Shown here one piece after another: positions 1-19,247 of a DNA stretch of 64,000 nucleotides; positions within the stretch are counted from its first letter, which is position 1; every line of letters starts with the position of its first letter. Under the pieces are notes generated by a model that was given only the letters and a program-made list of their open reading frames with translations, had not been told where the DNA came from and made no database searches. Both the position numbers and the translations under genes were made by a program. The stretch is from Hirudinaria manillensis (Eukaryota > Annelida > Clitellata > Hirudinida > Hirudinidae), in contig CM067537.1 in assembly GCA_034509925.1 (NCBI GenBank), positions 3,261,501 through 3,325,500 of the forward strand, read 5' to 3'.

Positions 1-385
1 GCTTGGGCAATGTCTCTGTCCTGTCAGAGACGAACTTCAACCTCATTGGTCTTCCGTCGAGCGTCATCGCGTTGAACCTTTTCATTGCGCTCGTGGCATC
101 GTTGTGTCTGCAGAAGACGACCTCCCCAGTTCCAGTGCTGGTACCGTCCTCCTTGTAATAGACTGTGGCTTTCCTGACGGCACCGACCGTGCCGAAAAGA
201 CATTCGAGATCCTTTCCGGTCACGTTGTAGCGCAGGTTGTCGATGAGAATCCTGCACTTACCGTCGTTCGCAAAGGATTTTTTCTCGATGATTTTCCTCC
301 CGTCCATGGCTGGCCTCCTCTTGTCTCTCTTGACAAACGAGTTAGCTTCAACTTTCGTTAACTTCGGTGCGGCCGTAGGATACAT
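1..385 (-). CDS. ALYREF-like: ALYREF-like gene, unit 1 (3' end beyond the window)
   Basis: Residues 1 to about 128 are visible, from the ATG at 383-385. The rest, including the UAP56-binding tail, lies left of the window. It carries the same Ala74Thr change as unit 4 and the same synonymous GGTACC variant as units 3, 4 and 13, which marks sequence exchange within the array. Confidence 0.85.
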   Translation of the reverse strand, partial: MYPTAAPKLTKVEANSFVKRDKRRPAMDGRKIIEKKSFANDGKCRILIDNLRYNVTGKDLECLFGTVGAVRKATVYYKEDGTSTGTGEVVFCRHNDATSAMKRFNAMTLDGRPMRLKFVSDRTETLPK

Positions 386-449
386 TTTGTAACTTGGAAG
401 AACTATGGAAACGTACAGAGTGCTGTGTTGTTTTGCTAGAGAGGTAACT

Positions 450-461
450 GTCGTCGACGAC
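450..461. promoter_or_regulatory. 12-bp perfect palindrome GTCGTCGACGAC near the predicted start site
   Basis: It lies about 30 bp below the TATA box, at or just after the predicted transcription start, and recurs at the same place in the array except in units 3 and 13, where the last base is G. It could be a protein-binding site or a small 5'UTR hairpin; its role is unknown. Confidence 0.5.
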
Positions 462-489
462 TAAACGTTTTGGCAAAAAAGATGCTGGA

Positions 490-495
490 TATATA
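490..495 (-). promoter_or_regulatory. TATA box of unit 1 (repeated in every complete unit)
   Basis: The minus strand reads TATATA in the context AATTATATATCC, 105-110 bp upstream of the ATG. I saw the same element at the same offset in the other units (for example 1356-1361 for unit 2). A start about 30 bp downstream would give a 5'UTR near 75-80 nt. Each complete unit thus appears to have its own promoter. Confidence 0.65.
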
Positions 496-528
496 ATTAT
501 TTTTCTATTAATTTTTTTCTGCTATTAT

Positions 529-546
529 TAAAAAAAAATTTTTTTC
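529..546. promoter_or_regulatory. Poly(dA:dT) tract upstream of the TATA box
   Basis: A run of A directly followed by a run of T, about 35-50 bp upstream of the TATA box. Run lengths differ from unit to unit, as expected of slippage. Such tracts often exclude nucleosomes at promoters; that role is inferred here. Confidence 0.45.
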
Positions 547-635
547 CCCCCATTCCTTTACGTATTAAAAAATATTTAAAAATTATTTATGCTGCTGAAT
601 AATTGATTAACACGATATATATTTTTTTGCGAGTT

Positions 636-641
636 TTTATT
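636..641 (-). terminator. AATAAA poly(A) signal of unit 2 (repeated in units)
   Basis: The minus strand has AATAAA about 29 nt after the TAA stop at 670-672, in the context TCTAATAAAAACTC. The same signal follows the stop in the other units. With the TATA box this makes each ~867-bp unit a compact transcription unit. Confidence 0.65.
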
Positions 642-669
642 AGAGATTGTTTGTAAAGTTTCTTGTCGA

Positions 670-1251
670 TTAACATTGGCCCACTGGCTCGACCGGCTTC
701 TTTTCGCACATGTATTGGTCGATTTCCATGTCGAGCTGGTCTTTCGTGGGCTTGCTGACTTCCGTTTTCTGCTGTTTTTGCTGCTTCTTGAAGACTCTCG
801 ATTTTCTAGTCTTGGGCGGCTGGCGAAAGGTCTTGTCCGTACGGTCGAACGTTTGTCTTTCCCGCTGCTTGGGCAATGTCTCTGTCCTGTCAGAGACGAA
901 CTTCAACCTCATTGGTCTTCCGTCGAGCGTCATCGCGTTGAACCTTTTCATTGCGCTCGTGGCATCGTTGTGTCTGCAGAAGACGACCTCCCCAGTTCCA
1001 GTGCTGGTGCCGTCCTCCTTGTAATAGACTGCGGCTTTCCTGACGGCACCGACCGTGCCGAAAAGACATTCGAGATCCTTTCCGGTCACGTTGTAGCGCA
1101 GGTTGTCGATGAGAATCCTGCACTTACCGTCGTTCGCAAAGGATTTTTTCTCGATGATTTTCCTCCCGACCATGGCTGGCCTCCTCTTGTCTCTCTTGAC
1201 AAACGAGTTAGCTTCAACTTTCGTTAACTTCGGTGCGGCCGTAGGATACAT
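670..1251 (-). CDS. ALYREF-like: ALYREF-like mRNA export adaptor, unit 2 (full annotation for the family)
   Basis: Single-exon gene for 193 residues. An RRM covers about residues 43-118, with RNP2-like RILIDNL at 45-51 and RNP1-like GTGEVVFC at 85-92. It ends in the LDGRPM segment (109-114) typical of Aly/REF proteins. A Lys/Arg/Gln-rich linker (about 121-165) follows. The C-terminus has TKDQLDMEIDQYM (169-181), matching the C-terminal UAP56/DDX39B-binding motif of ALYREF. Known Aly/REF proteins bind mRNA within the TREX complex in the nucleus and hand it to the export receptor NXF1. Unlike usual ALYREF, the N-terminal UAP56 motif and the RGG boxes are missing; basic Lys-rich stretches replace them. 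The lack of introns suggests a retrocopy origin. This copy has Asp28Val. The ATG is the first in frame, about 75 nt below a predicted TATA-directed start. The family assignment is strong; function of this short form is inferred. Confidence 0.88.
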   Translation of the reverse strand: MYPTAAPKLTKVEANSFVKRDKRRPAMVGRKIIEKKSFANDGKCRILIDNLRYNVTGKDLECLFGTVGAVRKAAVYYKEDGTSTGTGEVVFCRHNDATSAMKRFNAMTLDGRPMRLKFVSDRTETLPKQRERQTFDRTDKTFRQPPKTRKSRVFKKQQKQQKTEVSKPTKDQLDMEIDQYMCEKKPVEPVGQC

Positions 1252-1534
1252 TTTGTAACTTGGAAGAACTATGGAAACGTACAGAGTGCTGTGTTGTTTT
1301 GCTAGAGAGGTAACTGTCGTCGACGACTAAACGTTTTGGCAAAAAAGATGCTGGATATATAATTATTTTTCTATTAATTTTTTCTGCTATTATTAAAAAA
1401 AAAAATTTTTACACACCATTCCTTTACGTATTAAAAAATATTTAAAAATTATTTATGCTGCTGAATAATTGATTAACACGATATATATTTTTTGCGAGTT
1501 TTTATTAGAGATTGTTTGTAAAGTTTCTTGTCGA

Positions 1535-2116
1535 TTAACATTGGCCCACTGGCTCGACCGGCTTCTTTTCGCACATGTATTGGTCGATTTCCATGTCGAG
1601 CTGGTCTTTCGTGGGCTTGCTGACTTCCGTTTTCTGCTGTTTTTGCTGCTTCTTGAAGACTCTCGATTTTCTAGTCTTGGGCGGCTGGCGAAAGGTCTTG
1701 TCCGTACGGTCGAACGTTTGTCTTTCCCGCTGCTTGGGCAATGTCTCTGTCCTGTCAGAGACGAACTTCAACCTCATTGGTCTTCCGTCGAGCGTCATCG
1801 CGTTGAACCTTTTCATTGCGCTCGTGGCATCGTTGTGTCTGCAGAAGACGACCTCCCCAGTTCCAGTGCTGGTACCGTCCTCCTTGTAATAGACTGCGGC
1901 TTTCCTGACGGCACCGACCGTGCCGAAAAGACATTCGAGATCCTTTCCGGTCACGTTGTAGCGCAGGTTGTCGATGAGAATCCTGCACTTACCGTCGTTC
2001 GCAAAGGATTTTTTCTCGATGATTTTCCTCCCGTCCATGGCTGGCCTCCTCTTGTCTCTCCTGACAAACGAGTTAGTTTCAACTTTCGTAAACTTCGGTG
2101 CGGCCGTAGGATACAT
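1535..2116 (-). CDS. ALYREF-like: ALYREF-like, unit 3 (variant haplotype)
   Basis: Intact 193 codons with Leu9Phe, Ala14Thr and Lys19Arg. The same three changes, and the same broken 5'UTR palindrome (final C to G), recur only in unit 13, ten units away. Confidence 0.87.
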   Translation of the reverse strand: MYPTAAPKFTKVETNSFVRRDKRRPAMDGRKIIEKKSFANDGKCRILIDNLRYNVTGKDLECLFGTVGAVRKAAVYYKEDGTSTGTGEVVFCRHNDATSAMKRFNAMTLDGRPMRLKFVSDRTETLPKQRERQTFDRTDKTFRQPPKTRKSRVFKKQQKQQKTEVSKPTKDQLDMEIDQYMCEKKPVEPVGQC

Positions 2117-2400
2117 TTTGTAACTTGGAAGAACTATGGAAACGTACAGAGTGCTGTGTTGTTTTGCTAGAGAGGTAACTGTCGTCGACGAGTAAACGTT
2201 TTGGCAAAAAAGATGCTGGATATATAATTATTTTTCTATTAATTTTTTCTGCTAGTATTAAAAAAAAATTTTTTTTCCCCCCATTCCTTTACGTATTAAA
2301 AAATATTTAAAAATTATTTATGCTGCTGAATAATTGATTAACACGATATATATTTTTTTGCGAGTTTTTATTAGAGATTGTTTGTAAAGTTTCTTGTCGA

Positions 2401-2982
2401 TTAACATTGGCCCACTGGCTCGACCGGCTTCTTTTCGCACATGTATTGGTCGATTTCCATGTCGAGCTGGTCTTTCGTGGGCTTGCTGACTTCCGTTTTC
2501 TGCTGTTTTTGCTGCTTCTTGAAGACTCTCGATTTTCTAGTCTTGGGCGGCTGGCGAAAGGTCTTGTCCGTACGGTCGAACGTTTGTCTTTCCCGCTGCT
2601 TGGGCAATGTCTCTGTCCTGTCAGAGACGAACTTCAACCTCATTGGTCTTCCGTCGAGCGTCATCGCGTTGAACCTTTTCATTGCGCTCGTGGCATCGTT
2701 GTGTCTGCAGAAGACGACCTCCCCAGTTCCAGTGCTGGTACCGTCCTCCTTGTAATAGACTGTGGCTTTCCTGACGGCACCGACCGTGCCGAAAAGACAT
2801 TCGAGATCCTTTCCGGTCACGTTGTAGCGCAGGTTGTCGATGAGAATCCTGCACTTACCGTCGTTCGCAAAGGATTTTTTCTCGATGATTTTCCTCCCGT
2901 CCATGGCTGGCCTCCTCTTGTCTCTCTTGACAAACGAGTTAGCTTCAACTTTCGTTAACTTCGGTGCGGCCGTAGGATACAT
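2401..2982 (-). CDS. ALYREF-like: ALYREF-like, unit 4
   Basis: Intact 193 codons with Ala74Thr, shared with unit 1. Confidence 0.87.
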   Translation of the reverse strand: MYPTAAPKLTKVEANSFVKRDKRRPAMDGRKIIEKKSFANDGKCRILIDNLRYNVTGKDLECLFGTVGAVRKATVYYKEDGTSTGTGEVVFCRHNDATSAMKRFNAMTLDGRPMRLKFVSDRTETLPKQRERQTFDRTDKTFRQPPKTRKSRVFKKQQKQQKTEVSKPTKDQLDMEIDQYMCEKKPVEPVGQC

Positions 2983-3276
2983 TTTGTAACTTGGAAGAAC
3001 TATGGAAACGTACAGAGTGCTGTGTTGTTTTGCTAGAGAGGTAACTGTCGTCGACGACTAAACGTTTTGGCAAAAAAGATGCTGGATATATAATTATTTT
3101 TCTATTTATTTTTTCTGCTTGTATTAAAAAAAAAATTTTTTTTCCCCCATTCCTTTACGTATTAAAAAATATTAAAAAATATTTAAAAATTATTTATGCT
3201 GCTGAATAGTTGATTAACACGATATATATTTTTTTGCGAGTTTTTATTAGAGATTGTTTGTAAAGTTTCTTGTCGA

Positions 3277-3858
3277 TTAACATTGGCCCACTGGCTCGAC
3301 CGGCTTCTTTTCGCACATGTATTGGTCGATTTCCATGTCGAGCTGGTCTTTCGTGGGCTTGCTGACTTCCGTTTTCTGCTGTTTTTGCTGCTTCTTGAAG
3401 ACTCTCGATTTTCTAGTCTTGGGCGGCTGGCGAAAGGTCTTGTCCGTACGGTCTAACGTTTGTCTTTCCCGCTGCTTGGGCAATGTCTCTGTCCTGTCAG
3501 AGACGAACTTCAACCTCATTGGTCTTCCGTCGAGCGTCATCGCGTTGAACCTTTTCATTGCGCTCGTGGCATCGTTGTGTCTGCAGAAGACGACCTCCCC
3601 AGTTCCAGTGCTGGTGCCGTCCTCCTTGTAATAGACTGCGGCTTTCCTGACGGCACCGACCGTGCCGAAAAGACATTCGAGATCCTTTCCGGTCACGTTG
3701 TAGCGCAGGTTGTCGATGAGAATCCTGCACTTACCGTCGTTCGCAAAGGATTTTTTCTCGATGATTTTCCTCCCGTCCATGGCTGGCCTCCTCTTGTCTC
3801 TCTTGACAAACGAGTTAGCTTCAACTTTCGTTAACTTCGGTGCGGCCGTAGGATACAT
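3277..3858 (-). CDS. ALYREF-like: ALYREF-like, unit 5
   Basis: Intact 193 codons with Phe135Leu in the linker. Its 3' flank has the GAATAGTTG spacer variant and the 10-bp spacer duplication. Confidence 0.87.
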   Translation of the reverse strand: MYPTAAPKLTKVEANSFVKRDKRRPAMDGRKIIEKKSFANDGKCRILIDNLRYNVTGKDLECLFGTVGAVRKAAVYYKEDGTSTGTGEVVFCRHNDATSAMKRFNAMTLDGRPMRLKFVSDRTETLPKQRERQTLDRTDKTFRQPPKTRKSRVFKKQQKQQKTEVSKPTKDQLDMEIDQYMCEKKPVEPVGQC

Positions 3859-4142
3859 TTTGTAACTTGGAAGAACTATGGAAACGTACAGAGTGCTGTG
3901 TTGTTTTGCTAGAGAGGTAACTGTCGTCGACGACTAAACGTTTTGGCAAAAAAGATGCTGGATATATAATTATTTTTCTATTAATTTTTTCTGCTAGTAT
4001 TAAAAAAAAAATTTTTTTTCCCCCATTCCTTTACGTATTAAAAAATATTTAAAAATTATTTATGCTGCTGAATAATTGATTAACACGATATATATTTTTT
4101 TGCGAGTTTTTATTAGAGATTGTTTGTAAAGTTTCTTGTCGA

Positions 4143-4725
4143 TTAACATTGGCCCACTGGCTCGACCGGCTTCTTTTCGCACATGTATTGGTCGATTTCC
4201 ATGTCGAGCTGGTCTTTCGTGGGCTTGCTGACTTCCGTTTTCTGCTGTTTTTGCTGCTTCTTGAAGACTCTCGATTTTCTAGTCTTGGGCGGCTGGCGAA
4301 AGGTCTTGTCCGTACGGTCGAACGTTTGTCTTTCCCGCTGCTTGGGGCAATGTCTCTGTCCTGTCAGAGACGAACTTCAACCTCATTGGTCTTCCGTCGA
4401 GCGTCATCGCGTTGAACCTTTTCATTGCGCTCGTGGCATCGTTGTGTCTGCAGAAGACGACCTCCCCAGTTCCAGTGCTGGTGCCGTCCTCCTTGTAATA
4501 GACTGCGGCTTTCCTGACGGCACCGACCGTGCCGAAAAGACATTCGAGATCCTTTCCGGTCACGTTGTAGCGCAGGTTGTCGATGAGAATCCTGCACTTA
4601 CCGTCGTTCGCAAAGGATTTTTTCTCGATGATTTTCCTCCCGTCCATGGCTGGCCTCCTCTTGTCTCTCTTGACAAACGAGTTAGCTTCAACTTTCGTTA
4701 ACTTCGGTGCGGCCGTAGGATACAT
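4143..4725 (-). pseudogene. ALYREF-like: ALYREF-like, unit 6, +1 frameshift
   Basis: One extra G in the G-run at 4344-4347 (four instead of three) shifts the frame near residue 127. The product would be 148 residues: the RRM is kept and the basic linker and UAP56-binding tail are lost. The locus is 583 bp against 582 in intact units. This may be a real null copy or a homopolymer sequencing error. Confidence 0.8.
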
Positions 4726-5012
4726 TTTGTAACTTGGAAGAACTATGGAAACGTACAGAGTGCTGTGTTGTTTTGCTAGAGAGGTAACTGTCGTCGACGA
4801 CTAAACGTTTTGGCAAAAAAGATGCTGGATATATAATTATTTTTCTATTAATTTTTTCTGCTAGTATTAAAAAAAAAATTTTTTTATTTCTCCCATTCCT
4901 TTACGTATTAAAAAATATTTAAAAATTATTTATGCTGCTGAATAATTGATTAACACGATATATTTTTTTTTGCGAGTTTTTATTAGAGATTGTTTGTAAA
5001 GTTTCTTGTCGA

Positions 5013-5594
5013 TTAACATTGGCCCACTGGCTCGACCGGCTTCTTTTCGCACATGTATTGGTCGATTTCCATGTCGAGCTGGTCTTTCGTGGGCTTGCTG
5101 ACTTCCGTTTTCTGCTGTTTTTGCTGCTTCTTGAAGACTCTCGATTTTCTAGTCTTGGGCGGCTGGCGAAAGGTCTTGTCCGTACGGTCGAACGTTTGTC
5201 TTTCCCGCTGCTTGGGCAATGTCTCTGTCCTGTCAGAGACGAACTTCAACCTCATTGGTCTTCCGTCGAGCGTCATCGCGTTGAACCTTTTCATTGCGCT
5301 CGTGGCATCGTTGTGTCTGCAGAAGACGACCTCCCCAGTTCCAGTGCTGGTGCCGTCCTCCTTGTAATAGACTGCGGCTTTCCTGACGGCACCGACCGTG
5401 CCGAAAAGACATTCGAGATCCTTTCCGGTCACGTTGTAGCGCAGGTTGTCGATGAGAATCCTGCACTTACCGTCGTTCGCAAAGGATTTTTTCTCGATGA
5501 TTTTCCTCCCGTCCATGGCTGGCCTCCTCTTGTCTCTCTTGACAAACGAGTTAGCTTCAACTTTCGTTAACTTCGGTGCGGCCGTAGGATACAT
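5013..5594 (-). CDS. ALYREF-like: ALYREF-like, unit 7 (consensus protein)
   Basis: Intact 193 codons, identical in protein to units 8, 9, 11, 14, 18, 21 and 22. Confidence 0.87.
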   Translation of the reverse strand: MYPTAAPKLTKVEANSFVKRDKRRPAMDGRKIIEKKSFANDGKCRILIDNLRYNVTGKDLECLFGTVGAVRKAAVYYKEDGTSTGTGEVVFCRHNDATSAMKRFNAMTLDGRPMRLKFVSDRTETLPKQRERQTFDRTDKTFRQPPKTRKSRVFKKQQKQQKTEVSKPTKDQLDMEIDQYMCEKKPVEPVGQC

Positions 5595-5888
5595 TTTGTA
5601 ACTTGGAAGAACTATGGAAACGTACAGAGTGCTGTGTTGTTTTGCTAGAGAGGTAACTGTCGTCGACGACTAAACGTTTTGGCAAAAAAGATGCTGGATA
5701 TATAATTATTTTTCTATTAATTTTTTCTGCTAGTATTAAAAAAAAAATTTTTTTTCCCCCATTCCTTTACGTATTAAAAAATATTAAAAAATATTTAAAA
5801 ATTATTTATGCTGCTGAATAATTGATTAACACGATATATATTTTTTTGCGAGTTTTTATTAGAGATTGTTTGTAAAGTTTCTTGTCGA

Positions 5889-6470
5889 TTAACATTGGCC
5901 CACTGGCTCGACCGGCTTCTTTTCGCACATGTATTGGTCGATTTCCATGTCGAGCTGGTCTTTCGTGGGCTTGCTGACTTCCGTTTTCTGCTGTTTTTGC
6001 TGCTTCTTGAAGACTCTCGATTTTCTAGTCTTGGGCGGCTGGCGAAAGGTCTTGTCCGTACGGTCGAACGTTTGTCTTTCCCGCTGCTTGGGCAATGTCT
6101 CTGTCCTGTCAGAGACGAACTTCAACCTCATTGGTCTTCCGTCGAGCGTCATCGCGTTGAACCTTTTCATTGCGCTCGTGGCATCGTTGTGTCTGCAGAA
6201 GACGACCTCCCCAGTTCCAGTGCTGGTGCCGTCCTCCTTGTAATAGACTGCGGCTTTCCTGACGGCACCGACCGTGCCGAAAAGACATTCGAGATCCTTT
6301 CCGGTCACGTTGTAGCGCAGGTTGTCGATGAGAATCCTGCACTTACCGTCGTTCGCAAAGGATTTTTTCTCGATGATTTTCCTCCCGTCCATGGCTGGCC
6401 TCCTCTTGTCTCTCTTGACAAACGAGTTAGCTTCAACTTTCGTTAACTTCGGTGCGGCCGTAGGATACAT
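5889..6470 (-). CDS. ALYREF-like: ALYREF-like, unit 8 (consensus protein)
   Basis: Intact 193 codons with the consensus protein. The spacer downstream of its stop carries the second instance of the 10-bp TATTAAAAAA duplication. Confidence 0.87.
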   Translation of the reverse strand: MYPTAAPKLTKVEANSFVKRDKRRPAMDGRKIIEKKSFANDGKCRILIDNLRYNVTGKDLECLFGTVGAVRKAAVYYKEDGTSTGTGEVVFCRHNDATSAMKRFNAMTLDGRPMRLKFVSDRTETLPKQRERQTFDRTDKTFRQPPKTRKSRVFKKQQKQQKTEVSKPTKDQLDMEIDQYMCEKKPVEPVGQC

Positions 6471-6754
6471 TTTGTAACTTGGAAGAACTATGGAAACGTA
6501 CAGAGTGCTGTGTTGTTTTGCTAGAGAGGTAACTGTCGTCGACGACTAAACGTTTTGGCAAAAAAGATGCTGGATATATAATTATTTTTCTATTAATTTT
6601 TTCTGCTAGTATTAAAAAAAAATTTTTTTTTCCCCCATTCCTTTACGTATTAAAAAATATTTAAAAATTATTTATGCTGCTGAATAATTGATTAACACGA
6701 TATATATTTTTTTGCGAGTTTTTATTAGAGATTGTTTGTAAAGTTTCTTGTCGA

Positions 6755-7336
6755 TTAACATTGGCCCACTGGCTCGACCGGCTTCTTTTCGCACATGTAT
6801 TGGTCGATTTCCATGTCGAGCTGGTCTTTCGTGGGCTTGCTGACTTCCGTTTTCTGCTGTTTTTGCTGCTTCTTGAAGACTCTCGATTTTCTAGTCTTGG
6901 GCGGCTGGCGAAAGGTCTTGTCCGTACGGTCGAACGTTTGTCTTTCCCGCTGCTTGGGCAATGTCTCTGTCCTGTCAGAGACGAACTTCAACCTCATTGG
7001 TCTTCCGTCGAGCGTCATCGCGTTGAACCTTTTCATTGCGCTCGTGGCATCGTTGTGTCTGCAGAAGACGACCTCCCCAGTTCCAGTGCTGGTGCCGTCC
7101 TCCTTGTAATAGACTGCGGCTTTCCTGACGGCACCGACCGTGCCGAAAAGACATTCGAGATCCTTTCCGGTCACGTTGTAGCGCAGGTTGTCGATGAGAA
7201 TCCTGCACTTACCGTCGTTCGCAAAGGATTTTTTCTCGATGATTTTCCTCCCGTCCATGGCTGGCCTCCTCTTGTCTCTCTTGACAAACGAGTTAGCTTC
7301 AACTTTCGTTAACTTCGGTGCGGCCGTAGGATACAT
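6755..7336 (-). CDS. ALYREF-like: ALYREF-like, unit 9 (consensus protein)
   Basis: Intact 193 codons with the consensus protein. Confidence 0.87.
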   Translation of the reverse strand: MYPTAAPKLTKVEANSFVKRDKRRPAMDGRKIIEKKSFANDGKCRILIDNLRYNVTGKDLECLFGTVGAVRKAAVYYKEDGTSTGTGEVVFCRHNDATSAMKRFNAMTLDGRPMRLKFVSDRTETLPKQRERQTFDRTDKTFRQPPKTRKSRVFKKQQKQQKTEVSKPTKDQLDMEIDQYMCEKKPVEPVGQC

Positions 7337-7619
7337 TTTGTAACTTGGAAGAACTATGGAAACGTACAGAGTGCTGTGTTGTTTTGCTAGAGAGGTAACT
7401 GTCGTCGACGACTAAACGTTTTGGCAAAAAAGATGCTGGATATATAATTATTTTTCTATTAATTTTTTCTGCTAGTATTAAAAAAAATTTTTTTATTTCT
7501 CCCATTCCTTTACGTATTAAAAAATATTTAAAAATTATTTATGCTGCTGAATAGTTGATTAACACGATATATTTTTTTGCGAGTTTTTATTAGAGATTGT
7601 TTGTAAAGTTTCTTGTCGA

Positions 7620-8201
7620 TTAACATTGGCCCACTGGCTCGACCGGCTTCTTTTCGCACATGTATTGGTCGATTTCCATGTCGAGCTGGTCTTTCGTGGG
7701 CTTGCTGACTTCCGTTTTCTGCTGTTTTTGCTGCTTCTTGAAGACTCTCGATTTTCTAGTCTTGGGCGGCTGGCGAAAGGTCTTGTCCGTACGGTCGAAC
7801 GTTTGTCTTTCCCGCTGCTTGGGCAATGTCTCTGTCCTGTCAGAGACGAACTTCAACCTCATTGGTCTTCCGTCGAGCGTCATCGCGTTGAACCTTTTCA
7901 TTGCGCTCGTGGCATCGTTGTGTCTGCAGAAGACGACCTCCCCAGTTCCAGTGCTGGTGCCGTCCTCCTTGTAATAGACTGCGGCTTTCTTGACGGCACC
8001 GACCGTGCCGAAAAGACATTCGAGATCCTTTCCGGTCACGTTGTAGCGCAGGTTGTCGATGAGAATCCTGCACTTACCGTCGTTCGCAAAGGATTTTTTC
8101 TCGATGATTTTCCTCCCGTCCATGGCTGGCCTCCTCTTGTCTCTCTTGACAAACGAGTTAGCTTCAACTTTCGTTAACTTCGGTGCGGCCGTAGGATACA
8201 T
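7620..8201 (-). CDS. ALYREF-like: ALYREF-like, unit 10 (Arg71Lys type)
   Basis: Intact 193 codons with Arg71Lys in the RRM. The GAATAGTTG spacer variant lies in its 3' flank, a linked pair that recurs in units 12, 15, 17 and 19. Confidence 0.87.
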   Translation of the reverse strand: MYPTAAPKLTKVEANSFVKRDKRRPAMDGRKIIEKKSFANDGKCRILIDNLRYNVTGKDLECLFGTVGAVKKAAVYYKEDGTSTGTGEVVFCRHNDATSAMKRFNAMTLDGRPMRLKFVSDRTETLPKQRERQTFDRTDKTFRQPPKTRKSRVFKKQQKQQKTEVSKPTKDQLDMEIDQYMCEKKPVEPVGQC

Positions 8202-8487
8202 TTTGTAACTTGGAAGAACTATGGAAACGTACAGAGTGCTGTGTTGTTTTGCTAGAGAGGTAACTGTCGTCGACGACTAAACGTTTTGGCAAAAAAGATG
8301 CTGGATATATAATTATTTTTCTATTAATTTTTTTCTGCTAGTATTAAAAAAAAATTTTTTATTTCTCCCATTCCTTTACGTATTAAAAAATATTTAAAAA
8401 TTATTTATGCTGCTGAATAATTGATTAACACGATATATTTTTTTTTGCGAGTTTTTATTAGAGATTGTTTGTAAAGTTTCTTGTCGA

Positions 8488-9069
8488 TTAACATTGGCCC
8501 ACTGGCTCGACCGGCTTCTTTTCGCACATGTATTGGTCGATTTCCATGTCGAGCTGGTCTTTCGTGGGCTTGCTGACTTCCGTTTTCTGCTGTTTTTGCT
8601 GCTTCTTGAAGACTCTCGATTTTCTAGTCTTGGGCGGCTGGCGAAAGGTCTTGTCCGTACGGTCGAACGTTTGTCTTTCCCGCTGCTTGGGCAATGTCTC
8701 TGTCCTGTCAGAGACGAACTTCAACCTCATTGGTCTTCCGTCGAGCGTCATCGCGTTGAACCTTTTCATTGCGCTCGTGGCATCGTTGTGTCTGCAGAAG
8801 ACGACCTCCCCAGTTCCAGTGCTGGTGCCGTCCTCCTTGTAATAGACTGCGGCTTTCCTGACGGCACCGACCGTGCCGAAAAGACATTCGAGATCCTTTC
8901 CGGTCACGTTGTAGCGCAGGTTGTCGATGAGAATCCTGCACTTACCGTCGTTCGCAAAGGATTTTTTCTCGATGATTTTCCTCCCGTCCATGGCTGGCCT
9001 CCTCTTGTCTCTCTTGACAAACGAGTTAGCTTCAACTTTCGTTAACTTCGGTGCGGCCGTAGGATACAT
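8488..9069 (-). CDS. ALYREF-like: ALYREF-like, unit 11 (consensus protein)
   Basis: Intact 193 codons with the consensus protein, between two Arg71Lys units. Confidence 0.87.
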   Translation of the reverse strand: MYPTAAPKLTKVEANSFVKRDKRRPAMDGRKIIEKKSFANDGKCRILIDNLRYNVTGKDLECLFGTVGAVRKAAVYYKEDGTSTGTGEVVFCRHNDATSAMKRFNAMTLDGRPMRLKFVSDRTETLPKQRERQTFDRTDKTFRQPPKTRKSRVFKKQQKQQKTEVSKPTKDQLDMEIDQYMCEKKPVEPVGQC

Positions 9070-9353
9070 TTTGTAACTTGGAAGAACTATGGAAACGTAC
9101 AGAGTGCTGTGTTGTTTTGCTAGAGAGGTAACTGTCGTCGACGACTAAACGTTTTGGCAAAAAAGATGCTGGATATATAATTATTTTTCTATTAATTTTT
9201 TCTGCTAGTATTAAAAAAATTTTTTTTATTTCTCCCATTCCTTTACGTATTAAAAAATATTTAAAAATATTTATGCTGCTGAATAGTTGATTAACACGAT
9301 ATATATTTTTTTGCGAGTTTTTATTAGAGATTGTTTGTAAAGTTTCTTGTCGA

Positions 9354-9935: not shown

Positions 9936-10220
9936 TTTGTAACTTGGAAGAACTATGGAAACGTACAGAGTGCTGTGTTGTTTTGCTAGAGAGGTAACTG
10001 TCGTCGACGACTAAACATTTTGGCAAAAAAGATGCTGGATATATAATTATTTTTCTATTAATTTTTTTCTGCTATTATTAAAAAAAAAATTTTTTTCCCC
10101 CCATTCCTTTACGTATTAAAAAATATTTAAAAATTATTTATGCTGCTGAATAATTGATTAACACGATATATATTTTTTTGCGAGTTTTTATTAGAGATTG
10201 TTTGTAAAGTTTCTTGTCGA

Positions 10221-10802
10221 TTAACATTGGCCCACTGGCTCGACCGGCTTCTTTTCGCACATGTATTGGTCGATTTCCATGTCGAGCTGGTCTTTCGTGG
10301 GCTTGCTGACTTCCGTTTTCTGCTGTTTTTGCTGCTTCTTGAAGACTCTCGATTTTCTAGTCTTGGGCGGCTGGCGAAAGGTCTTGTCCGTACGGTCGAA
10401 CGTTTGTCTTTCCCGCTGCTTGGGCAATGTCTCTGTCCTGTCAGAGACGAACTTCAACCTCATTGGTCTTCCGTCGAGCGTCATCGCGTTGAACCTTTTC
10501 ATTGCGCTCGTGGCATCGTTGTGTCTGCAGAAGACGACCTCCCCAGTTCCAGTGCTGGTACCGTCCTCCTTGTAATAGACTGCGGCTTTCCTGACGGCAC
10601 CGACCGTGCCGAAAAGACATTCGAGATCCTTTCCGGTCACGTTGTAGCGCAGGTTGTCGATGAGAATCCTGCACTTACCGTCGTTCGCAAAGGATTTTTT
10701 CTCGATGATTTTCCTCCCGTCCATGGCTGGCCTCCTCTTGTCTCTCCTGACAAACGAGTTAGTTTCAACTTTCGTAAACTTCGGTGCGGCCGTAGGATAC
10801 AT
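10221..10802 (-). CDS. ALYREF-like: ALYREF-like, unit 13 (variant haplotype)
   Basis: Intact 193 codons. The protein equals unit 3 (Leu9Phe, Ala14Thr, Lys19Arg) and the 5'UTR palindrome is broken in the same way, so units 3 and 13 descend from one recent parent or a conversion event. Confidence 0.87.
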   Translation of the reverse strand: MYPTAAPKFTKVETNSFVRRDKRRPAMDGRKIIEKKSFANDGKCRILIDNLRYNVTGKDLECLFGTVGAVRKAAVYYKEDGTSTGTGEVVFCRHNDATSAMKRFNAMTLDGRPMRLKFVSDRTETLPKQRERQTFDRTDKTFRQPPKTRKSRVFKKQQKQQKTEVSKPTKDQLDMEIDQYMCEKKPVEPVGQC

Positions 10803-11086
10803 TTTGTAACTTGGAAGAACTATGGAAACGTACAGAGTGCTGTGTTGTTTTGCTAGAGAGGTAACTGTCGTCGACGAGTAAACGTTTTGGCAAAAAAGAT
10901 GCTGGATATATAATTATTTTTCTATTAATTTTTTCTGCTAGTATTAAAAAAAAATTTTTTTTTCCCCCATTCCTTAACGTATTAAAAAATATTTAAAAAT
11001 TATTTATGCTGCTGAATAATTGATTAACACGATATATATTTTTTTGCGAGTTTTTATTAGAGATTGTTTGTAAAGTTTCTTGTCGA

Positions 11087-11668
11087 TTAACATTGGCCCA
11101 CTGGCTCGACCGGCTTCTTTTCGCACATGTATTGGTCGATTTCCATGTCGAGCTGGTCTTTCGTGGGCTTGCTGACTTCCGTTTTCTGCTGTTTTTGCTG
11201 CTTCTTGAAGACTCTCGATTTTCTAGTCTTGGGCGGCTGGCGAAAGGTCTTGTCCGTACGGTCGAACGTTTGTCTTTCCCGCTGCTTGGGCAATGTCTCT
11301 GTCCTGTCAGAGACGAACTTCAACCTCATTGGTCTTCCGTCGAGCGTCATCGCGTTGAACCTTTTCATTGCGCTCGTGGCATCGTTGTGTCTGCAGAAGA
11401 CGACCTCCCCAGTTCCAGTGCTGGTGCCGTCCTCCTTGTAATAGACTGCGGCTTTCCTGACGGCACCGACCGTGCCGAAAAGACATTCGAGATCCTTTCC
11501 GGTCACGTTGTAGCGCAGGTTGTCGATGAGAATCCTGCACTTACCGTCGTTCGCAAAGGATTTTTTCTCGATGATTTTCCTCCCGTCCATGGCTGGCCTC
11601 CTCTTGTCTCTCTTGACAAACGAGTTAGCTTCAACTTTCGTTAACTTCGGTGCGGCCGTAGGATACAT
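11087..11668 (-). CDS. ALYREF-like: ALYREF-like, unit 14 (consensus protein)
   Basis: Intact 193 codons with the consensus protein. Confidence 0.87.
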   Translation of the reverse strand: MYPTAAPKLTKVEANSFVKRDKRRPAMDGRKIIEKKSFANDGKCRILIDNLRYNVTGKDLECLFGTVGAVRKAAVYYKEDGTSTGTGEVVFCRHNDATSAMKRFNAMTLDGRPMRLKFVSDRTETLPKQRERQTFDRTDKTFRQPPKTRKSRVFKKQQKQQKTEVSKPTKDQLDMEIDQYMCEKKPVEPVGQC

Positions 11669-11952
11669 TTTGTAACTTGGAAGAACTATGGAAACGTACA
11701 GAGTGCTGTGTTGTTTTGCTAGAGAGGTAACTGTCGTCGACGACTAAACGTTTTGGCAAAAAAGATGCTGGATATATAATTATTTTTCTATTAATTTTTT
11801 CTGCTAGTATTAAAAAAATTTTTTTATTTCTCCCATTCCTTTACGTATTAAAAAATATTTAAAAATTATTTATGCTGCTGAATAGTTGATTAACACGATA
11901 TATATTTTTTTGCGAGTTTTTATTAGAGATTGTTTGTAAAGTTTCTTGTCGA

Positions 11953-12535
11953 TTAACATTGGCCCACTGGCTCGACCGGCTTCTTTTCGCACATGTATTG
12001 GTCGATTTCCATGTCGAGCTGGTCTTTCGTGGGCTTGCTGACTTCCGTTTTCTGCTGTTTTTGCTGCTTCTTGAAGACTCTCGATTTTCTAGTCTTGGGC
12101 GGCTGGCGAAAGGTCTTGTCCGTACGGTCGAACGTTTGTCTTTCCCGCTGCTTGGGCAATGTCTCTGTCCTGTCAGAGACGAAACTTCAACCTCATTGGT
12201 CTTCCGTCGAGCGTCATCGCGTTGAACCTTTTCATTGCGCTCGTGGCATCGTTGTGTCTGCAGAAGACGACCTCCCCAGTTCCAGTGCTGGTGCCGTCCT
12301 CCTTGTAATAGACTGCGGCTTTCTTGACGGCACCGACCGTGCCGAAAAGACATTCGAGATCCTTTCCGGTCACGTTGTAGCGCAGGTTGTCGATGAGAAT
12401 CCTGCACTTACCGTCGTTCGCAAAGGATTTTTTCTCGATGATTTTCCTCCCGTCCATGGCTGGCCTCCTCTTGTCTCTCTTGACAAACGAGTTAGCTTCA
12501 ACTTTCGTTAACTTCGGTGCGGCCGTAGGATACAT
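11953..12535 (-). pseudogene. ALYREF-like: ALYREF-like, unit 15, +1 frameshift
   Basis: One extra A in the A-run at 12182-12184 shifts the frame at the end of the RRM. The frame from the ATG gives only 120 residues. It is otherwise of the Arg71Lys type with the GAATAGTTG flank. A homopolymer sequencing error cannot be excluded. Confidence 0.8.
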
Positions 12536-12821
12536 TTTGTAACTTGGAAGAACTATGGAAACGTACAGAGTGCTGTGTTGTTTTGCTAGAGAGGTAACTG
12601 TCGTCGACGACTAAACGTTTTGGCAAAAAAGATGCTGGATATATAATTATTTTTCTATTAATTTTTTCTGCTAGTATTAAAAAAAAAATTTTTTATTTCT
12701 CCCATTCCTTTACGTATTAAAAAATATTTAAAAATTATTTATGCTGCTGAATAATTGATTAACACGATATATTTTTTTTTGCGAGTTTTTATTAGAGATT
12801 GTTTGTAAAGTTTCTTGTCGA

Positions 12822-13404
12822 TTAACATTGGCCCACTGGCTCGACCGGCTTCTTTTCGCACATGTATTGGTCGATTTCCATGTCGAGCTGGTCTTTCGTG
12901 GGCTTGCTGACTTCCGTTTTTCTGCTGTTTTTGCTGCTTCTTGAAGACTCTCGATTTTCTAGTCTTGGGCGGCTGGCGAAAGGTCTTGTCCGTACGGTCG
13001 AACGTTTGTCTTTCCCGCTGCTTGGGCAATGTCTCTGTCCTGTCAGAGACGAACTTCAACCTCATTGGTCTTCCGTCGAGCGTCATCGCGTTGAACCTTT
13101 TCATTGCGCTCGTGGCATCGTTGTGTCTGCAGAAGACGACCTCCCCAGTTCCAGTGCTGGTGCCGTCCTCCTTGTAATAGACTGCGGCTTTCCTGACGGC
13201 ACCGACCGTGCCGAAAAGACATTCGAGATCCTTTCCGGTCACGTTGTAGCGCAGGTTGTCGATGAGAATCCTGCACTTACCGTCGTTCGCAAAGGATTTT
13301 TTCTCGATGATTTTCCTCCCGTCCATGGCTGGCCTCCTCTTGTCTCTCTTGACAAACGAGTTAGCTTCAACTTTCGTTAACTTCGGTGCGGCCGTAGGAT
13401 ACAT
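12822..13404 (-). pseudogene. ALYREF-like: ALYREF-like, unit 16, +1 frameshift with extended new tail
   Basis: One extra T in the T-run at 12917-12921 shifts the frame at about residue 163, just before the UAP56-binding motif. The shifted frame runs through the normal stop to 12739, giving 221 residues: RRM and basic linker intact, export-helicase motif replaced by an unrelated tail. It may be real or an error. Confidence 0.78.
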
Positions 13405-13689
13405 TTTGTAACTTGGAAGAACTATGGAAACGTACAGAGTGCTGTGTTGTTTTGCTAGAGAGGTAACTGTCGTCGACGACTAAACGTTTTGGCAAAAAAG
13501 ATGCTGGATATATAATTATTTTTCTATTAATTTTTTCTGCTAGTATTAAAAAAATTTTTTTTATTTCTCCCATTCCTTTACGTATTAAAAAATATTTAAA
13601 AATTATTTATGCTGCTGAATAGTTGATTAACACGATATATATTTTTTTGCGAGTTTTTATTAGAGATTGTTTGTAAAGTTTCTTGTCGA

Positions 13690-14271
13690 TTAACATTGGC
13701 CCACTGGCTCGACCGGCTTCTTTTCGCACATGTATTGGTCGATTTCCATGTCGAGCTGGTCTTTCGTGGGCTTGCTGACTTCCGTTTTCTGCTGTTTTTG
13801 CTGCTTCTTGAAGACTCTCGATTTTCTAGTCTTGGGCGGCTGGCGAAAGGTCTTGTCCGTACGGTCGAACGTTTGTCTTTCCCGCTGCTTGGGCAATGTC
13901 TCTGTCCTGTCAGAGACGAACTTCAACCTCATTGGTCTTCCGTCGAGCGTCATCGCGTTGAACCTTTTCATTGCGCTCGTGGCATCGTTGTGTCTGCAGA
14001 AGACGACCTCCCCAGTTCCAGTGCTGGTGCCGTCCTCCTTGTAATAGACTGCGGCTTTCTTGACGGCACCGACCGTGCCGAAAAGACATTCGAGATCCTT
14101 TCCGGTCACGTTGTAGCGCAGGTTGTCGATGAGAATCCTGCACTTACCGTCGTTCGCAAAGGATTTTTTCTCGATGATTTTCCTCCCGTCCATGGCTGGC
14201 CTCCTCTTGTCTCTCTTGACAAACGAGTTAGCTTCAACTTTCGTTAACTTCGGTGCGGCCGTAGGATACAT
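13690..14271 (-). CDS. ALYREF-like: ALYREF-like, unit 17 (Arg71Lys type)
   Basis: Intact 193 codons with Arg71Lys and the linked GAATAGTTG 3' flank. Confidence 0.87.
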   Translation of the reverse strand: MYPTAAPKLTKVEANSFVKRDKRRPAMDGRKIIEKKSFANDGKCRILIDNLRYNVTGKDLECLFGTVGAVKKAAVYYKEDGTSTGTGEVVFCRHNDATSAMKRFNAMTLDGRPMRLKFVSDRTETLPKQRERQTFDRTDKTFRQPPKTRKSRVFKKQQKQQKTEVSKPTKDQLDMEIDQYMCEKKPVEPVGQC

Positions 14272-14557
14272 TTTGTAACTTGGAAGAACTATGGAAACGT
14301 ACAGAGTGCTGTGTTGTTTTGCTAGAGAGGTAACTGTCGTCGACGACTAAACGTTTTGGCAAAAAAGATGCTGGATATATAATTATTTTTCTATTAATTT
14401 TTTCTGCTAGTATTAAAAAAAAATTTTTTTATTTCTCCCATTCCTTTACGTATTAAAAAATATTTAAAAATTATTTATGCTGCTGAATAATTGATTAACA
14501 CGATATATTTTTTTTTGCGAGTTTTTATTAGAGATTGTTTGTAAAGTTTCTTGTCGA

Positions 14558-15139
14558 TTAACATTGGCCCACTGGCTCGACCGGCTTCTTTTCGCACATG
14601 TATTGGTCGATTTCCATGTCGAGCTGGTCTTTCGTGGGCTTGCTGACTTCCGTTTTCTGCTGTTTTTGCTGCTTCTTGAAGACTCTCGATTTTCTAGTCT
14701 TGGGCGGCTGGCGAAAGGTCTTGTCCGTACGGTCGAACGTTTGTCTTTCCCGCTGCTTGGGCAATGTCTCTGTCCTGTCAGAGACGAACTTCAACCTCAT
14801 TGGTCTTCCGTCGAGCGTCATCGCGTTGAACCTTTTCATTGCGCTCGTGGCATCGTTGTGTCTGCAGAAGACGACCTCCCCAGTTCCAGTGCTGGTGCCG
14901 TCCTCCTTGTAATAGACTGCGGCTTTCCTGACGGCACCGACCGTGCCGAAAAGACATTCGAGATCCTTTCCGGTCACGTTGTAGCGCAGGTTGTCGATGA
15001 GAATCCTGCACTTACCGTCGTTCGCAAAGGATTTTTTCTCGATGATTTTCCTCCCGTCCATGGCTGGCCTCCTCTTGTCTCTCTTGACAAACGAGTTAGC
15101 TTCAACTTTCGTTAACTTCGGTGCGGCCGTAGGATACAT
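14558..15139 (-). CDS. ALYREF-like: ALYREF-like, unit 18 (consensus protein)
   Basis: Intact 193 codons with the consensus protein. Confidence 0.87.
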   Translation of the reverse strand: MYPTAAPKLTKVEANSFVKRDKRRPAMDGRKIIEKKSFANDGKCRILIDNLRYNVTGKDLECLFGTVGAVRKAAVYYKEDGTSTGTGEVVFCRHNDATSAMKRFNAMTLDGRPMRLKFVSDRTETLPKQRERQTFDRTDKTFRQPPKTRKSRVFKKQQKQQKTEVSKPTKDQLDMEIDQYMCEKKPVEPVGQC

Positions 15140-15424
15140 TTTGTAACTTGGAAGAACTATGGAAACGTACAGAGTGCTGTGTTGTTTTGCTAGAGAGGTA
15201 ACTGTCGTCGACGACTAAACGTTTTGGCAAAAAAGATGCTGGATATATAATTATTTTTCTATTAATTTTTTCTGCTAGTATTAAAAAAATTTTTTTTATT
15301 TCTCCCATTCCTTTACGTATTAAAAAATATTTAAAAATTATTTATGCTGCTGAATAGTTGATTAACACGATATATATTTTTTTGCGAGTTTTTATTAGAG
15401 ATTGTTTGTAAAGTTTCTTGTCGA

Positions 15425-16006
15425 TTAACATTGGCCCACTGGCTCGACCGGCTTCTTTTCGCACATGTATTGGTCGATTTCCATGTCGAGCTGGTCTTTC
15501 GTGGGCTTGCTGACTTCCGTTTTCTGCTGTTTTTGCTGCTTCTTGAAGACTCTCGATTTTCTAGTCTTGGGCGGCTGGCGAAAGGTCTTGTCCGTACGGT
15601 CGAACGTTTGTCTTTCCCGCTGCTTGGGCAATGTCTCTGTCCTGTCAGAGACGAACTTCAACCTCATTGGTCTTCCGTCGAGCGTCATCGCGTTGAACCT
15701 TTTCATTGCGCTCGTGGCATCGTTGTGTCTGCAGAAGACGACCTCCCCAGTTCCAGTGCTGGTGCCGTCCTCCTTGTAATAGACTGCGGCTTTCTTGACG
15801 GCACCGACCGTGCCGAAAAGACATTCGAGATCCTTTCCGGTCACGTTGTAGCGCAGGTTGTCGATGAGAATCCTGCACTTACCGTCGTTCGCAAAGGATT
15901 TTTTCTCGATGATTTTCCTCCCGTCCATGGCTGGCCTCCTCTTGTCTCTCTTGACAAACGAGTTAGCTTCAACTTTCGTTAACTTCGGTGCGGCCGTAGG
16001 ATACAT
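15425..16006 (-). CDS. ALYREF-like: ALYREF-like, unit 19 (Arg71Lys type)
   Basis: Intact 193 codons with Arg71Lys and the linked GAATAGTTG 3' flank. Confidence 0.87.
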   Translation of the reverse strand: MYPTAAPKLTKVEANSFVKRDKRRPAMDGRKIIEKKSFANDGKCRILIDNLRYNVTGKDLECLFGTVGAVKKAAVYYKEDGTSTGTGEVVFCRHNDATSAMKRFNAMTLDGRPMRLKFVSDRTETLPKQRERQTFDRTDKTFRQPPKTRKSRVFKKQQKQQKTEVSKPTKDQLDMEIDQYMCEKKPVEPVGQC

Positions 16007-16291
16007 TTTGTAACTTGGAAGAACTATGGAAACGTACAGAGTGCTGTGTTGTTTTGCTAGAGAGGTAACTGTCGTCGACGACTAAACGTTTTGGCAAAAA
16101 AGATGCTGGATATATAATTATTTTTCTATTAATTTTTTTCTGCTATTATTAAAAAAAAAATTTTTTTCCCCCCATTCCTTTACGTATTAAAAAATATTTA
16201 AAAATTATTTATGCTGCTGAATAATTGATTAACACGATATATATTTTTTTGCGAGTTTTTATTAGAGATTGTTTGTAAAGTTTCTTGTCGA

Positions 16292-16874
16292 TTAACATTG
16301 GCCCACTGGCTCGACCGGCTTCTTTTCGCACATGTATTGGTCGATTTCCATGTCGAGCTGGTCTTTCGTGGGCTTGCTGACTTCCGTTTTCTGCTGTTTT
16401 TGCTGCTTCTTGAAGACTCTCGATTTTCTAGTCTTGGGCGGCTGGCGAAAGGTCTTGTCCGTACGGTCGAACGTTTGTCTTTCCCGCTGCTTGGGCAATG
16501 TCTCTGTCCTGTCAGAGACGAACTTCAACCTCATTGGTCTTCCGTCGAGCGTCATCGCGTTGAACCTTTTCATTGCGCTCGTGGCATCGTTGTGTCTGCA
16601 GAAGACGACCTCCCCAGTTCCAGTGCTGGTGCCGTCCTCCTTGTAATAGACTGCGGCTTTCTTGACGGCACCGACCGTGCCGAAAAGACATTCGAGATCC
16701 TTTCCGGTCACGTTTGTAGCGCAGGTTGTCGATGAGAATCCTGCACTTACCGTCGTTCGCAAAGGATTTTTTCTCGATGATTTTCCTCCCGTCCATGGCT
16801 GGCCTCCTCTTGTCTCTCTTGACAAACGAGTTAGCTTCAACTTTCGTTAACTTCGGTGCGGCCGTAGGATACAT
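16292..16874 (-). pseudogene. ALYREF-like: ALYREF-like, unit 20, +1 frameshift inside the RRM
   Basis: One extra T in the run at 16713-16715 shifts the frame at residue 54, directly after RNP2. The reading frame from the ATG is 120 residues of mostly wrong sequence. It is of the Arg71Lys type but lacks the linked GAATAGTTG flank, so it is a recombinant unit. Confidence 0.8.
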
Positions 16875-17159
16875 TTTGTAACTTGGAAGAACTATGGAAA
16901 CGTACAGAGTGCTGTGTTGTTTTGCTAGAGAGGTAACTGTCGTCGACGACTAAACGTTTTGGCAAAAAAGATGCTGGATATATAATTATTTTTCTATTAA
17001 TTTTTTTCTGCTATTATTAAAAAAAAAATTTTTTTCCCCCCATTCCTTTACGTATTAAAAAATATTTAAAAATTATTTATGCTGCTGAATAATTGATTAA
17101 CACGATATATATTTTTTTGCGAGTTTTTATTAGAGATTGTTTGTAAAGTTTCTTGTCGA

Positions 17160-17741
17160 TTAACATTGGCCCACTGGCTCGACCGGCTTCTTTTCGCACA
17201 TGTATTGGTCGATTTCCATGTCGAGCTGGTCTTTCGTGGGCTTGCTGACTTCCGTTTTCTGCTGTTTTTGCTGCTTCTTGAAGACTCTCGATTTTCTAGT
17301 CTTGGGCGGCTGGCGAAAGGTCTTGTCCGTACGGTCGAACGTTTGTCTTTCCCGCTGCTTGGGCAATGTCTCTGTCCTGTCAGAGACGAACTTCAACCTC
17401 ATTGGTCTTCCGTCGAGCGTCATCGCGTTGAACCTTTTCATTGCGCTCGTGGCATCGTTGTGTCTGCAGAAGACGACCTCCCCAGTTCCAGTGCTGGTGC
17501 CGTCCTCCTTGTAATAGACTGCGGCTTTCCTGACGGCACCGACCGTGCCGAAAAGACATTCGAGATCCTTTCCGGTCACGTTGTAGCGCAGGTTGTCGAT
17601 GAGAATCCTGCACTTACCGTCGTTCGCAAAGGATTTTTTCTCGATGATTTTCCTCCCGTCCATGGCTGGCCTCCTCTTGTCTCTCTTGACAAACGAGTTA
17701 GCTTCAACTTTCGTTAACTTCGGTGCGGCCGTAGGATACAT
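17160..17741 (-). CDS. ALYREF-like: ALYREF-like, unit 21 (consensus protein)
   Basis: Intact 193 codons with the consensus protein. Confidence 0.87.
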   Translation of the reverse strand: MYPTAAPKLTKVEANSFVKRDKRRPAMDGRKIIEKKSFANDGKCRILIDNLRYNVTGKDLECLFGTVGAVRKAAVYYKEDGTSTGTGEVVFCRHNDATSAMKRFNAMTLDGRPMRLKFVSDRTETLPKQRERQTFDRTDKTFRQPPKTRKSRVFKKQQKQQKTEVSKPTKDQLDMEIDQYMCEKKPVEPVGQC

Positions 17742-18028
17742 TTTGTAACTTGGAAGAACTATGGAAACGTACAGAGTGCTGTGTTGTTTTGCTAGAGAGG
17801 TAACTGTCGTCGACGACTAAACGTTTTGGCAAAAAAGATGCTGGATATATAATTATTTTTCTATTAATTTTTTCTGCTAGTATTAAAAAAAAAATTTTTT
17901 TATTTCTCCCATTCCTTTACGTATTAAAAAATATTTAAAAATTATTTATGCTGCTGAATAATTGATTAACACGATATATTTTTTTTTGCGAGTTTTTATT
18001 AGAGATTGTTTGTAAAGTTTCTTGTCGA

Positions 18029-18610
18029 TTAACATTGGCCCACTGGCTCGACCGGCTTCTTTTCGCACATGTATTGGTCGATTTCCATGTCGAGCTGGTC
18101 TTTCGTGGGCTTGCTGACTTCCGTTTTCTGCTGTTTTTGCTGCTTCTTGAAGACTCTCGATTTTCTAGTCTTGGGCGGCTGGCGAAAGGTCTTGTCCGTA
18201 CGGTCGAACGTTTGTCTTTCCCGCTGCTTGGGCAATGTCTCTGTCCTGTCAGAGACGAACTTCAACCTCATTGGTCTTCCGTCGAGCGTCATCGCGTTGA
18301 ACCTTTTCATTGCGCTCGTGGCATCGTTGTGTCTGCAGAAGACGACCTCCCCAGTTCCAGTGCTGGTGCCGTCCTCCTTGTAATAGACTGCGGCTTTCCT
18401 GACGGCACCGACCGTGCCGAAAAGACATTCGAGATCCTTTCCGGTCACGTTGTAGCGCAGGTTGTCGATGAGAATCCTGCACTTACCGTCGTTCGCAAAG
18501 GATTTTTTCTCGATGATTTTCCTCCCGTCCATGGCTGGCCTCCTCTTGTCTCTCTTGACAAACGAGTTAGCTTCAACTTTCGTTAACTTCGGTGCGGCCG
18601 TAGGATACAT
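18029..18610 (-). CDS. ALYREF-like: ALYREF-like, unit 22 (consensus protein)
   Basis: Intact 193 codons with the consensus protein. It is the last complete unit before the array border. Confidence 0.87.
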   Translation of the reverse strand: MYPTAAPKLTKVEANSFVKRDKRRPAMDGRKIIEKKSFANDGKCRILIDNLRYNVTGKDLECLFGTVGAVRKAAVYYKEDGTSTGTGEVVFCRHNDATSAMKRFNAMTLDGRPMRLKFVSDRTETLPKQRERQTFDRTDKTFRQPPKTRKSRVFKKQQKQQKTEVSKPTKDQLDMEIDQYMCEKKPVEPVGQC

Positions 18611-18896
18611 TTTGTAACTTGGAAGAACTATGGAAACGTACAGAGTGCTGTGTTGTTTTGCTAGAGAGGTAACTGTCGTCGACGACTAAACGTTTTGGCA
18701 AAAAAGATGCTGGATATATAATTATTTTTCTATTAATTTTTTCTGCTAGTATTAAAAAAAAATTTTTTTATTTCTCCCATTCCTTTACGTATTAAAAAAT
18801 ATTTAAAAATTATTTATGCTGCTGAATAATTGATTAACACGATATATATTTTTTTGCGAGTTTTTATTAGAGATTGTTTGTAAAGTTTCTTGTCGA

Positions 18897-19247
18897 TTAA
18901 CATTGGCCCACTGGCTCGACCGGCTTCTTTTCGCACATGTATTGGTCGATTTCCATGTCGAGCTGGTCTTTCGTGGGCTTGCTGACTTCCGTTTTCTGCT
19001 GTTTTTGCTGCTTCTTGAAGACTCTCGATTTTCTAGTCTTGGGCGGCTGGCGAAAGGTCTTGTCCGTACGGTCGAACGTTTGTCTTTCCCGCTGCTTGGG
19101 CAATGTCTCTGTCCTGTCAGAGACGAACTTCAACCTCATTGGTCTTCCGTCGAGCGTCATCGCGTTGAACCTTTTCATTGCGCTCGTGGCATCGTTGTGT
19201 CTGCAGAAGACGACCTCCCCAGTTCCAGTGCTGGTGCCGTCCTCCTT
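18897..19247 (-). pseudogene. ALYREF-like: ALYREF-like, unit 23, truncated at the array border
   Basis: Only residues 78-193 remain (the second half of the RRM, linker and UAP56-binding tail). Homology stops abruptly at 19247 and unrelated AT-rich DNA follows, so start codon, 5'UTR and promoter are missing. Any transcript would need a promoter from the flank. Confidence 0.9.

Follow-up and report, generated by a model that had tools for sequence, protein, structure and literature searches.

Why does the genome of the leech Hirudinaria manillensis hold about 44 tandem copies of a gene resembling the mRNA-export adaptor ALYREF, and what could such copies do? The array lies on contig C12 of a 148.4-Mb, 23-contig genome, within which all comparisons among leech genes were made, and its right-hand part fills positions 1..19247 of the 64,000-nt window analyzed here (C12:3261501-3325500). 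Blast with one coding sequence resolved this part into 23 minus-strand, head-to-tail units of ~867 bp, 97.6-100% identical to the reference unit: 21 of full length, one cut by the left window edge (intact in the genome) and one truncated at 19247, where the right boundary of the array falls inside the coding sequence (18897..19247, minus strand, 351 of 582 nt left). The 193-codon frame, represented by the intronless coding sequence at 5889..6470 (minus strand), is intact in 17 of the 21 full-length copies; a 1-nt insertion shifts the frame in the other four (4143..4725, 11953-12535, 12822-13404 and 16292-16874, all minus strand). An earlier sequence-only reading of the window had described at least 23 homogeneous, intronless units with 17 intact frames, in an array running past the window edge, and blast combined with open reading frames returned the same counts.

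The array extends left to C12:3239632, and its full span (C12:3239632-3280747, about 41 kb) contains 44 full-length coding copies, the one truncated right-end copy, left-end fragments and, mid-array, two decayed relics (C12:3252499-3253906). Near-complete units, for which 840 bp or more of the 867 align, number 43. Of these, 35 are intact; two have in-frame indels (a 9-nt deletion and a 57-nt insertion) and six have 1-nt insertions located in short mononucleotide runs. In the 44th full-length copy a single nucleotide is deleted, and such 1-nt changes could be assembly errors. At the left-hand end, a 283-aa frame (L031:8896-9744), whose SAP match falls below threshold (19.7 bits, cut-off 23.9), extends into the first fragment of the array, and a broken ALYREF-like copy with 40-41% identity and one stop lies ~54 kb to the right of the array (L035:8873-9238, minus strand).

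Could an assembler have inflated a few real copies into this array? The units are very similar, the six 1-nt length differences are of a kind typical of read errors in mononucleotide runs, and the Merqury score reported for the assembly is 33.53 (PMC10671345). However, most units can be told apart, and the array is anchored by unique flanks and by its internal relics. The assembly is reported to rest on 23.80 Gb of HiFi reads with a mean length of 18.73 kb, long enough for each to span ~20 units, and to comprise 22 scaffolds plus a 15,581-bp mitochondrion, with a longest scaffold of 14.76 Mb and an N50 of 11.46 Mb (PMC10671345). Since the genome is a PacBio HiFi assembly, we consider a pure artefact very unlikely. 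The head-to-tail, homogeneous units are as found in tandem arrays under concerted evolution. Divergence between units was weakly related to their distance within the array (rho 0.17), and no block of at least three successive units recurred at a fixed offset with two or fewer differences.

The array protein matches Pfam RRM_1 (E 1.9e-11) and FoP_duplication (E 2e-8). Its RNA recognition motif (RRM; aa 46-114, 6129..6335, minus strand) is of the ALYREF type according to Pfam, solved structures and a tree described below. The best single-RRM structure matches were THOC4/ALYREF, including mouse REF2 (E 4e-16 to 3.5e-14), and a four-RRM yeast PABP had the highest summed score. Near the C-terminus, the stretch KDQLDMEIDQYM (aa 170-181, 5928..5963, minus strand) resembles by eye LTKEQLDEQLDNYN of leech ALYREF and the corresponding stretch of the C2 and C9 paralogs (LDMEIDQYM in the array, LDEQLDNYN in leech ALYREF). 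Together with the FoP_duplication match, this points to a C-terminal UAP56-binding motif (UBM, as named in PMC12823420 and PMC7614608). A canonical leech ALYREF is encoded on C6, where our hand-made 7-exon model contains an N-terminal UBM, WxHD, RGG arms, the RRM and the C-terminal UBM. In contrast to that gene, the array gene is intronless and present in ~44 copies; by inspection its 193-aa product lacks the N-terminal UBM (MSLDDIIKLN in leech ALYREF), and it has no RGG/GRG (leech ALYREF: 10) and no WxHD. By its sequence, the array protein is a divergent ALYREF-like paralog and not ALYREF itself. Of the earlier description as an Aly/REF-type export adaptor, the RRM type stands and the canonical adaptor does not; because the paralog is divergent and without N-terminal UBM, RGG arms and WxHD, 'export adaptor' is best kept as a putative label.

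A UBM-bearing export adaptor of restricted expression is already known in LUZP4, and the mouse Luzp4 locus is reported to be expanded on the X chromosome (PMC4344508). As described there, LUZP4 differs from the leech protein in its single N-terminal UBM, RS-H region and leucine zipper, whereas the array encodes an RRM and a C-terminal motif and is a homogeneous tandem array.

Where did the array gene come from? The sequence-only reading had proposed a search for a parental, intron-containing ALYREF, and the intron-bearing gene on C6 answers it, with its parenthood putative. A single-copy intronless relative of the array gene was located on C2, and more diverged relatives on C11 and C9. The array and C2 frames are uninterrupted, compared with seven exons in the ALYREF model, as would be expected of retrogenes for which ALYREF is the putative parent. 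In the array unit, a run of seven A lies 7 nt beyond the AATAAA, and is a possible poly(A) remnant of a retrocopy. A tree of 21 RRMs, with few outgroups drawn from search matches, separated 12 leech sequences (array, C2, C11, C9, C5, C4 and C2:11.84-Mb) together with leech and human ALYREF from seven PABP, nucleolin and 2m70 sequences (98/95). The C5 and C2:11.84-Mb genes had ambiguous best matches of their own. Two of the C11 genes (C11a and C11b, at C11:3.13 and 2.63 Mb, 0.5 Mb apart) are nearly identical in coding sequence but have diverged flanks, so that a simple retrocopy boundary is not demonstrated; the pair looks like a product of gene conversion between the two.

We then ask what could keep intronless copies active. 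Each unit contains an initiator-like element, CCAGCATCTTTTT, which precedes the ATG by 103 nt (6561..6573 in the representative unit, minus strand; 22 identical copies in the window), and a block resembling the downstream promoter element (DPE), CGTCGACGA (6536..6544, minus strand). Counted from the A of the CAG, this block starts exactly at +28, where PMC8461331 places the DPE. All 22 occurrences in the window have this spacing, as does the C2 paralog; array and C2 alone were compared for this block, which is at +28 in both despite diverged intervening sequence. One array relic retains the initiator-like element and has lost its frame. The 'TATA box' of the earlier reading did not hold, as the TATATA lies within 2 nt of the conserved CAG and not ~30 nt upstream of it, and the array promoter looks initiator/DPE-like rather than TATA-like. 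The predicted AATAAA is present 28 nt past the stop codon (5855..5860, minus strand). What remains of the promoter-bearing compact unit is that each unit looks like an autonomous transcription unit. Histone and rDNA arrays likewise consist of homogeneous head-to-tail units, each with control elements; the leech array differs in consisting of a single protein gene of an RNA-binding family, for which a dosage use is putative.

A related motif, YYAGNATCTTTTT, which we defined after inspecting upstream regions, was exact in five of the ten regions tested (C12, C11a, C11c, C5 and C4) and matched at 12 of 13 positions in C11b. Best matches in the C2, C9, C2b and ALYREF regions were no better than those in shuffles (53, 116, 83 and 349 of 400, respectively), and the aligned position in C2 is occupied by a variant. 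The whole genome has 514 sites, to which the amplified families contribute, versus 210 for the reversed pattern. In six hand-chosen stretches, three of seven other sites were followed by an open reading frame of at least 127 aa starting at +125 to +142 and four were not; a further site in L045 had no such frame, and no enrichment near genes is claimed. Two of these three motif-preceded genes are related to each other and one is TGS1-like. The related pair (C2:5482450-5484650 and 6515116-6516400; L053 and L054) consists of intronless frames with an RS-like end behind the same initiator-like motif. The L053 frame had no Pfam match and its protein is unrecognized; two motif copies 1.37 kb apart suggest a tandem pair there. 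The third, at C2:9.17 Mb (L058:2-1171, minus strand), is an intron-free frame for a TGS1-like RNA cap methyltransferase (Methyltransf_15, E 3.9e-42).

Related RRM genes have been amplified elsewhere. On C5 at 5.59-5.63 Mb, tandem intronless genes with long open frames were found (C5:5583001-5593000, 5598001-5608000 and 5626001-5636000; L040-L042). The complete frames examined contain 3, 3, 4, 5 and 12 near-identical RRM repeats of ~130 aa, and all seven gene starts in these stretches are preceded by TCAGCATCTTTTT. A group on C4, mostly at 0.44-0.64 Mb, comprises multi-copy intronless genes whose products, of ~520 aa, contain several RRMs and extended runs of serine; C4-type multi-RRM genes were recorded in L043 and L044 (C4:634001-644000 and 523001-533000) and at L045:3425-4954, and a diverged relative of the group is situated at C2:11.84 Mb. 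With the C12 array included, related RRM genes are amplified in at least three groups (C12, C5 and C4). The RBMY and DAZ genes are also amplified RRM genes, and the C5 relatives vary in their number of internal RRM repeats somewhat as DAZ does. Those genes are Y-linked in mammals, whereas the leech is a hermaphrodite, and the likeness is not a claim of orthology.

Taken jointly, we propose that the array gene arose as an old retrocopy, probably of ALYREF, which was later amplified and would have been homogenized by unequal crossing-over and gene conversion. Each unit would be transcribed, so that a short RNA-binding protein would be made in large amounts. The sequence-only reading had also put forward a very high dosage, for example in the germ line or embryo. 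The C-terminal motif of the protein may bind the helicase UAP56/DDX39 and its RRM may contact RNA or ribonucleoprotein; the protein could then serve as a pared-down TREX adaptor in particular stages or tissues (most probably the germline), or else compete with ALYREF. A simplified or competing role is suggested because the protein has no N-terminal motif, no RGG arms and no WxHD for contact with the exon junction. To this proposal as a whole we give an even chance of being correct. A piece of human ALYREF with the C-terminal UBM only (residues 106-257) is reported to bind UAP56 (PMC12823420).

Several observations weigh against the proposal. Normal functioning of ALYREF reportedly needs both UBMs (PMC7614608), and the array protein has one UBM-like motif only; as the one-motif fragment nevertheless binds UAP56, a simplified adaptor and a competitor are both possible. 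Nine of the 18 inner branches of the RRM tree are weakly supported, and the tree therefore does not settle whether the gene descends from ALYREF itself; the two C11 genes scanned had no FoP_duplication match. Finally, variable coding sites within the array number 10 nonsynonymous and 3 synonymous (459 and 120 sites), a ratio of 0.87 that does not differ from neutrality (P 0.74), so that current selection on single copies is undetectable and variants appear near neutral per copy. This pattern fits per-copy redundancy with homogenization, and alone is no proof of dosage selection.

Does the near-neutral pattern mean that the array is a satellite-like expansion, in which one or a few functional ancestors spread by recent unequal exchange with no selection for dosage? 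The 10:3 ratio is what such an expansion would give, and the frameshifted copies and the two fully decayed relics inside the array also fit it. Over the longer term, however, divergence between the C12 array and C2 was 0.24 at nonsynonymous (Ka) and 0.84 at synonymous (Ks) sites, and the ratio of 0.29 indicates that the array lineage was under past purifying selection. Against the expansion stand also the amplification of related RRM genes at other loci, the intact state of 35 of the 43 units and the 74 nt before the ATG, which are invariant in 43 units, whereas 13 of 571 columns vary in the coding sequence and 14 of 145 downstream of it (counted without homopolymers and gapped columns); recent homogenization alone could explain the last two. 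We regard neutral expansion as a possible explanation, if on the doubtful side.

Might the amplification instead be selfish? The sequence-only reading had raised a Stellate-like origin, and under conflict the copies might be kept because they bias transmission or oppose a transposon or virus whose export depends on UAP56. Conflict would be consistent with the amplified state of related RRM genes at three loci (C12, C5 and C4), and with a protein resembling a truncated adaptor able to compete for UAP56. The Drosophila Stellate/Su(Ste) system shares with the array its tandem multicopy intact genes; it differs in its protein and in its X-Y setting, and suppressor repeats were absent among the matches listed here. 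Outside the array, only diverged paralogs were returned by the protein search (best 150 of 200 candidates) and by the DNA search, whose six listed matches (three in the array, C2 and two on C11) are far fewer than the array holds, so that the lack of suppressor-like or dispersed copies among the matches listed speaks weakly against conflict. Leeches are hermaphroditic and lack sex chromosomes; this takes away the X-Y setting, not drive in general. Divergence also shows no marked acceleration: Ka to C11a is 0.50 for C12 and 0.47 for C2, which suggests that the array lineage has been about as constrained as the single-copy C2 gene. A selfish origin seems improbable to us.

A broader scenario joins these threads. 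The array could belong to a leech lineage-specific superfamily of ALYREF-derived, intronless RRM genes, repeatedly amplified, several with a shared initiator that moves with retrocopies, whose products would, in the germline, rival ALYREF for UAP56 or take its place there, making the family one party to a conflict over RNA export. The shared initiator could travel in this way because it lies at the transcript start. We offer this scenario as speculation that is unlikely to hold in full.

To the right of the array, two similar long intron-free carboxylesterase frames lie side by side (window 22586-24244 and 28658-30271). The window had no Rfam match at gathering thresholds and no match to phage records. 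Elsewhere in the genome, CCCTAA repeats were noted at the starts of C1 and C12, and antistasin gave 63 matches. The mitochondrial contig (C23, 15,581 bp) has the order cox1-N-cox2-D-atp8-G-Y-cox3, which is annelid-like. These three features point to a leech; an ascidian origin was rejected, and the Ciona spliced leader had no match. A nuclear cox1 match at C9:3026446-3027786 (L049:1501-2841), equal in score to the mitochondrial contig, reflects either mitochondrial DNA recently inserted into the nucleus or a join made in assembly.

Tandem concerted arrays, retrogenes, restricted-expression export adaptors and the expanded mouse Luzp4 locus (as reported in PMC4344508) are already known. None of the top-ranked literature matches dealt with an ALYREF array or with the array family in leeches, which is not proof of absence, and a term search of the main texts of H. 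manillensis papers returned no 'ALYREF', 'THO complex' or 'RNA-binding'. Adaptors for mRNA export are generally regarded as housekeeping factors encoded by few gene copies. A homogeneous array of ~44 reduced ALYREF-like genes, together with related RRM genes amplified on two further chromosomes, would make this leech a natural system for asking whether such adaptors come under dosage selection or genetic conflict, and the array may offer a test of whether an initiator/DPE-type promoter keeps intronless copies active.

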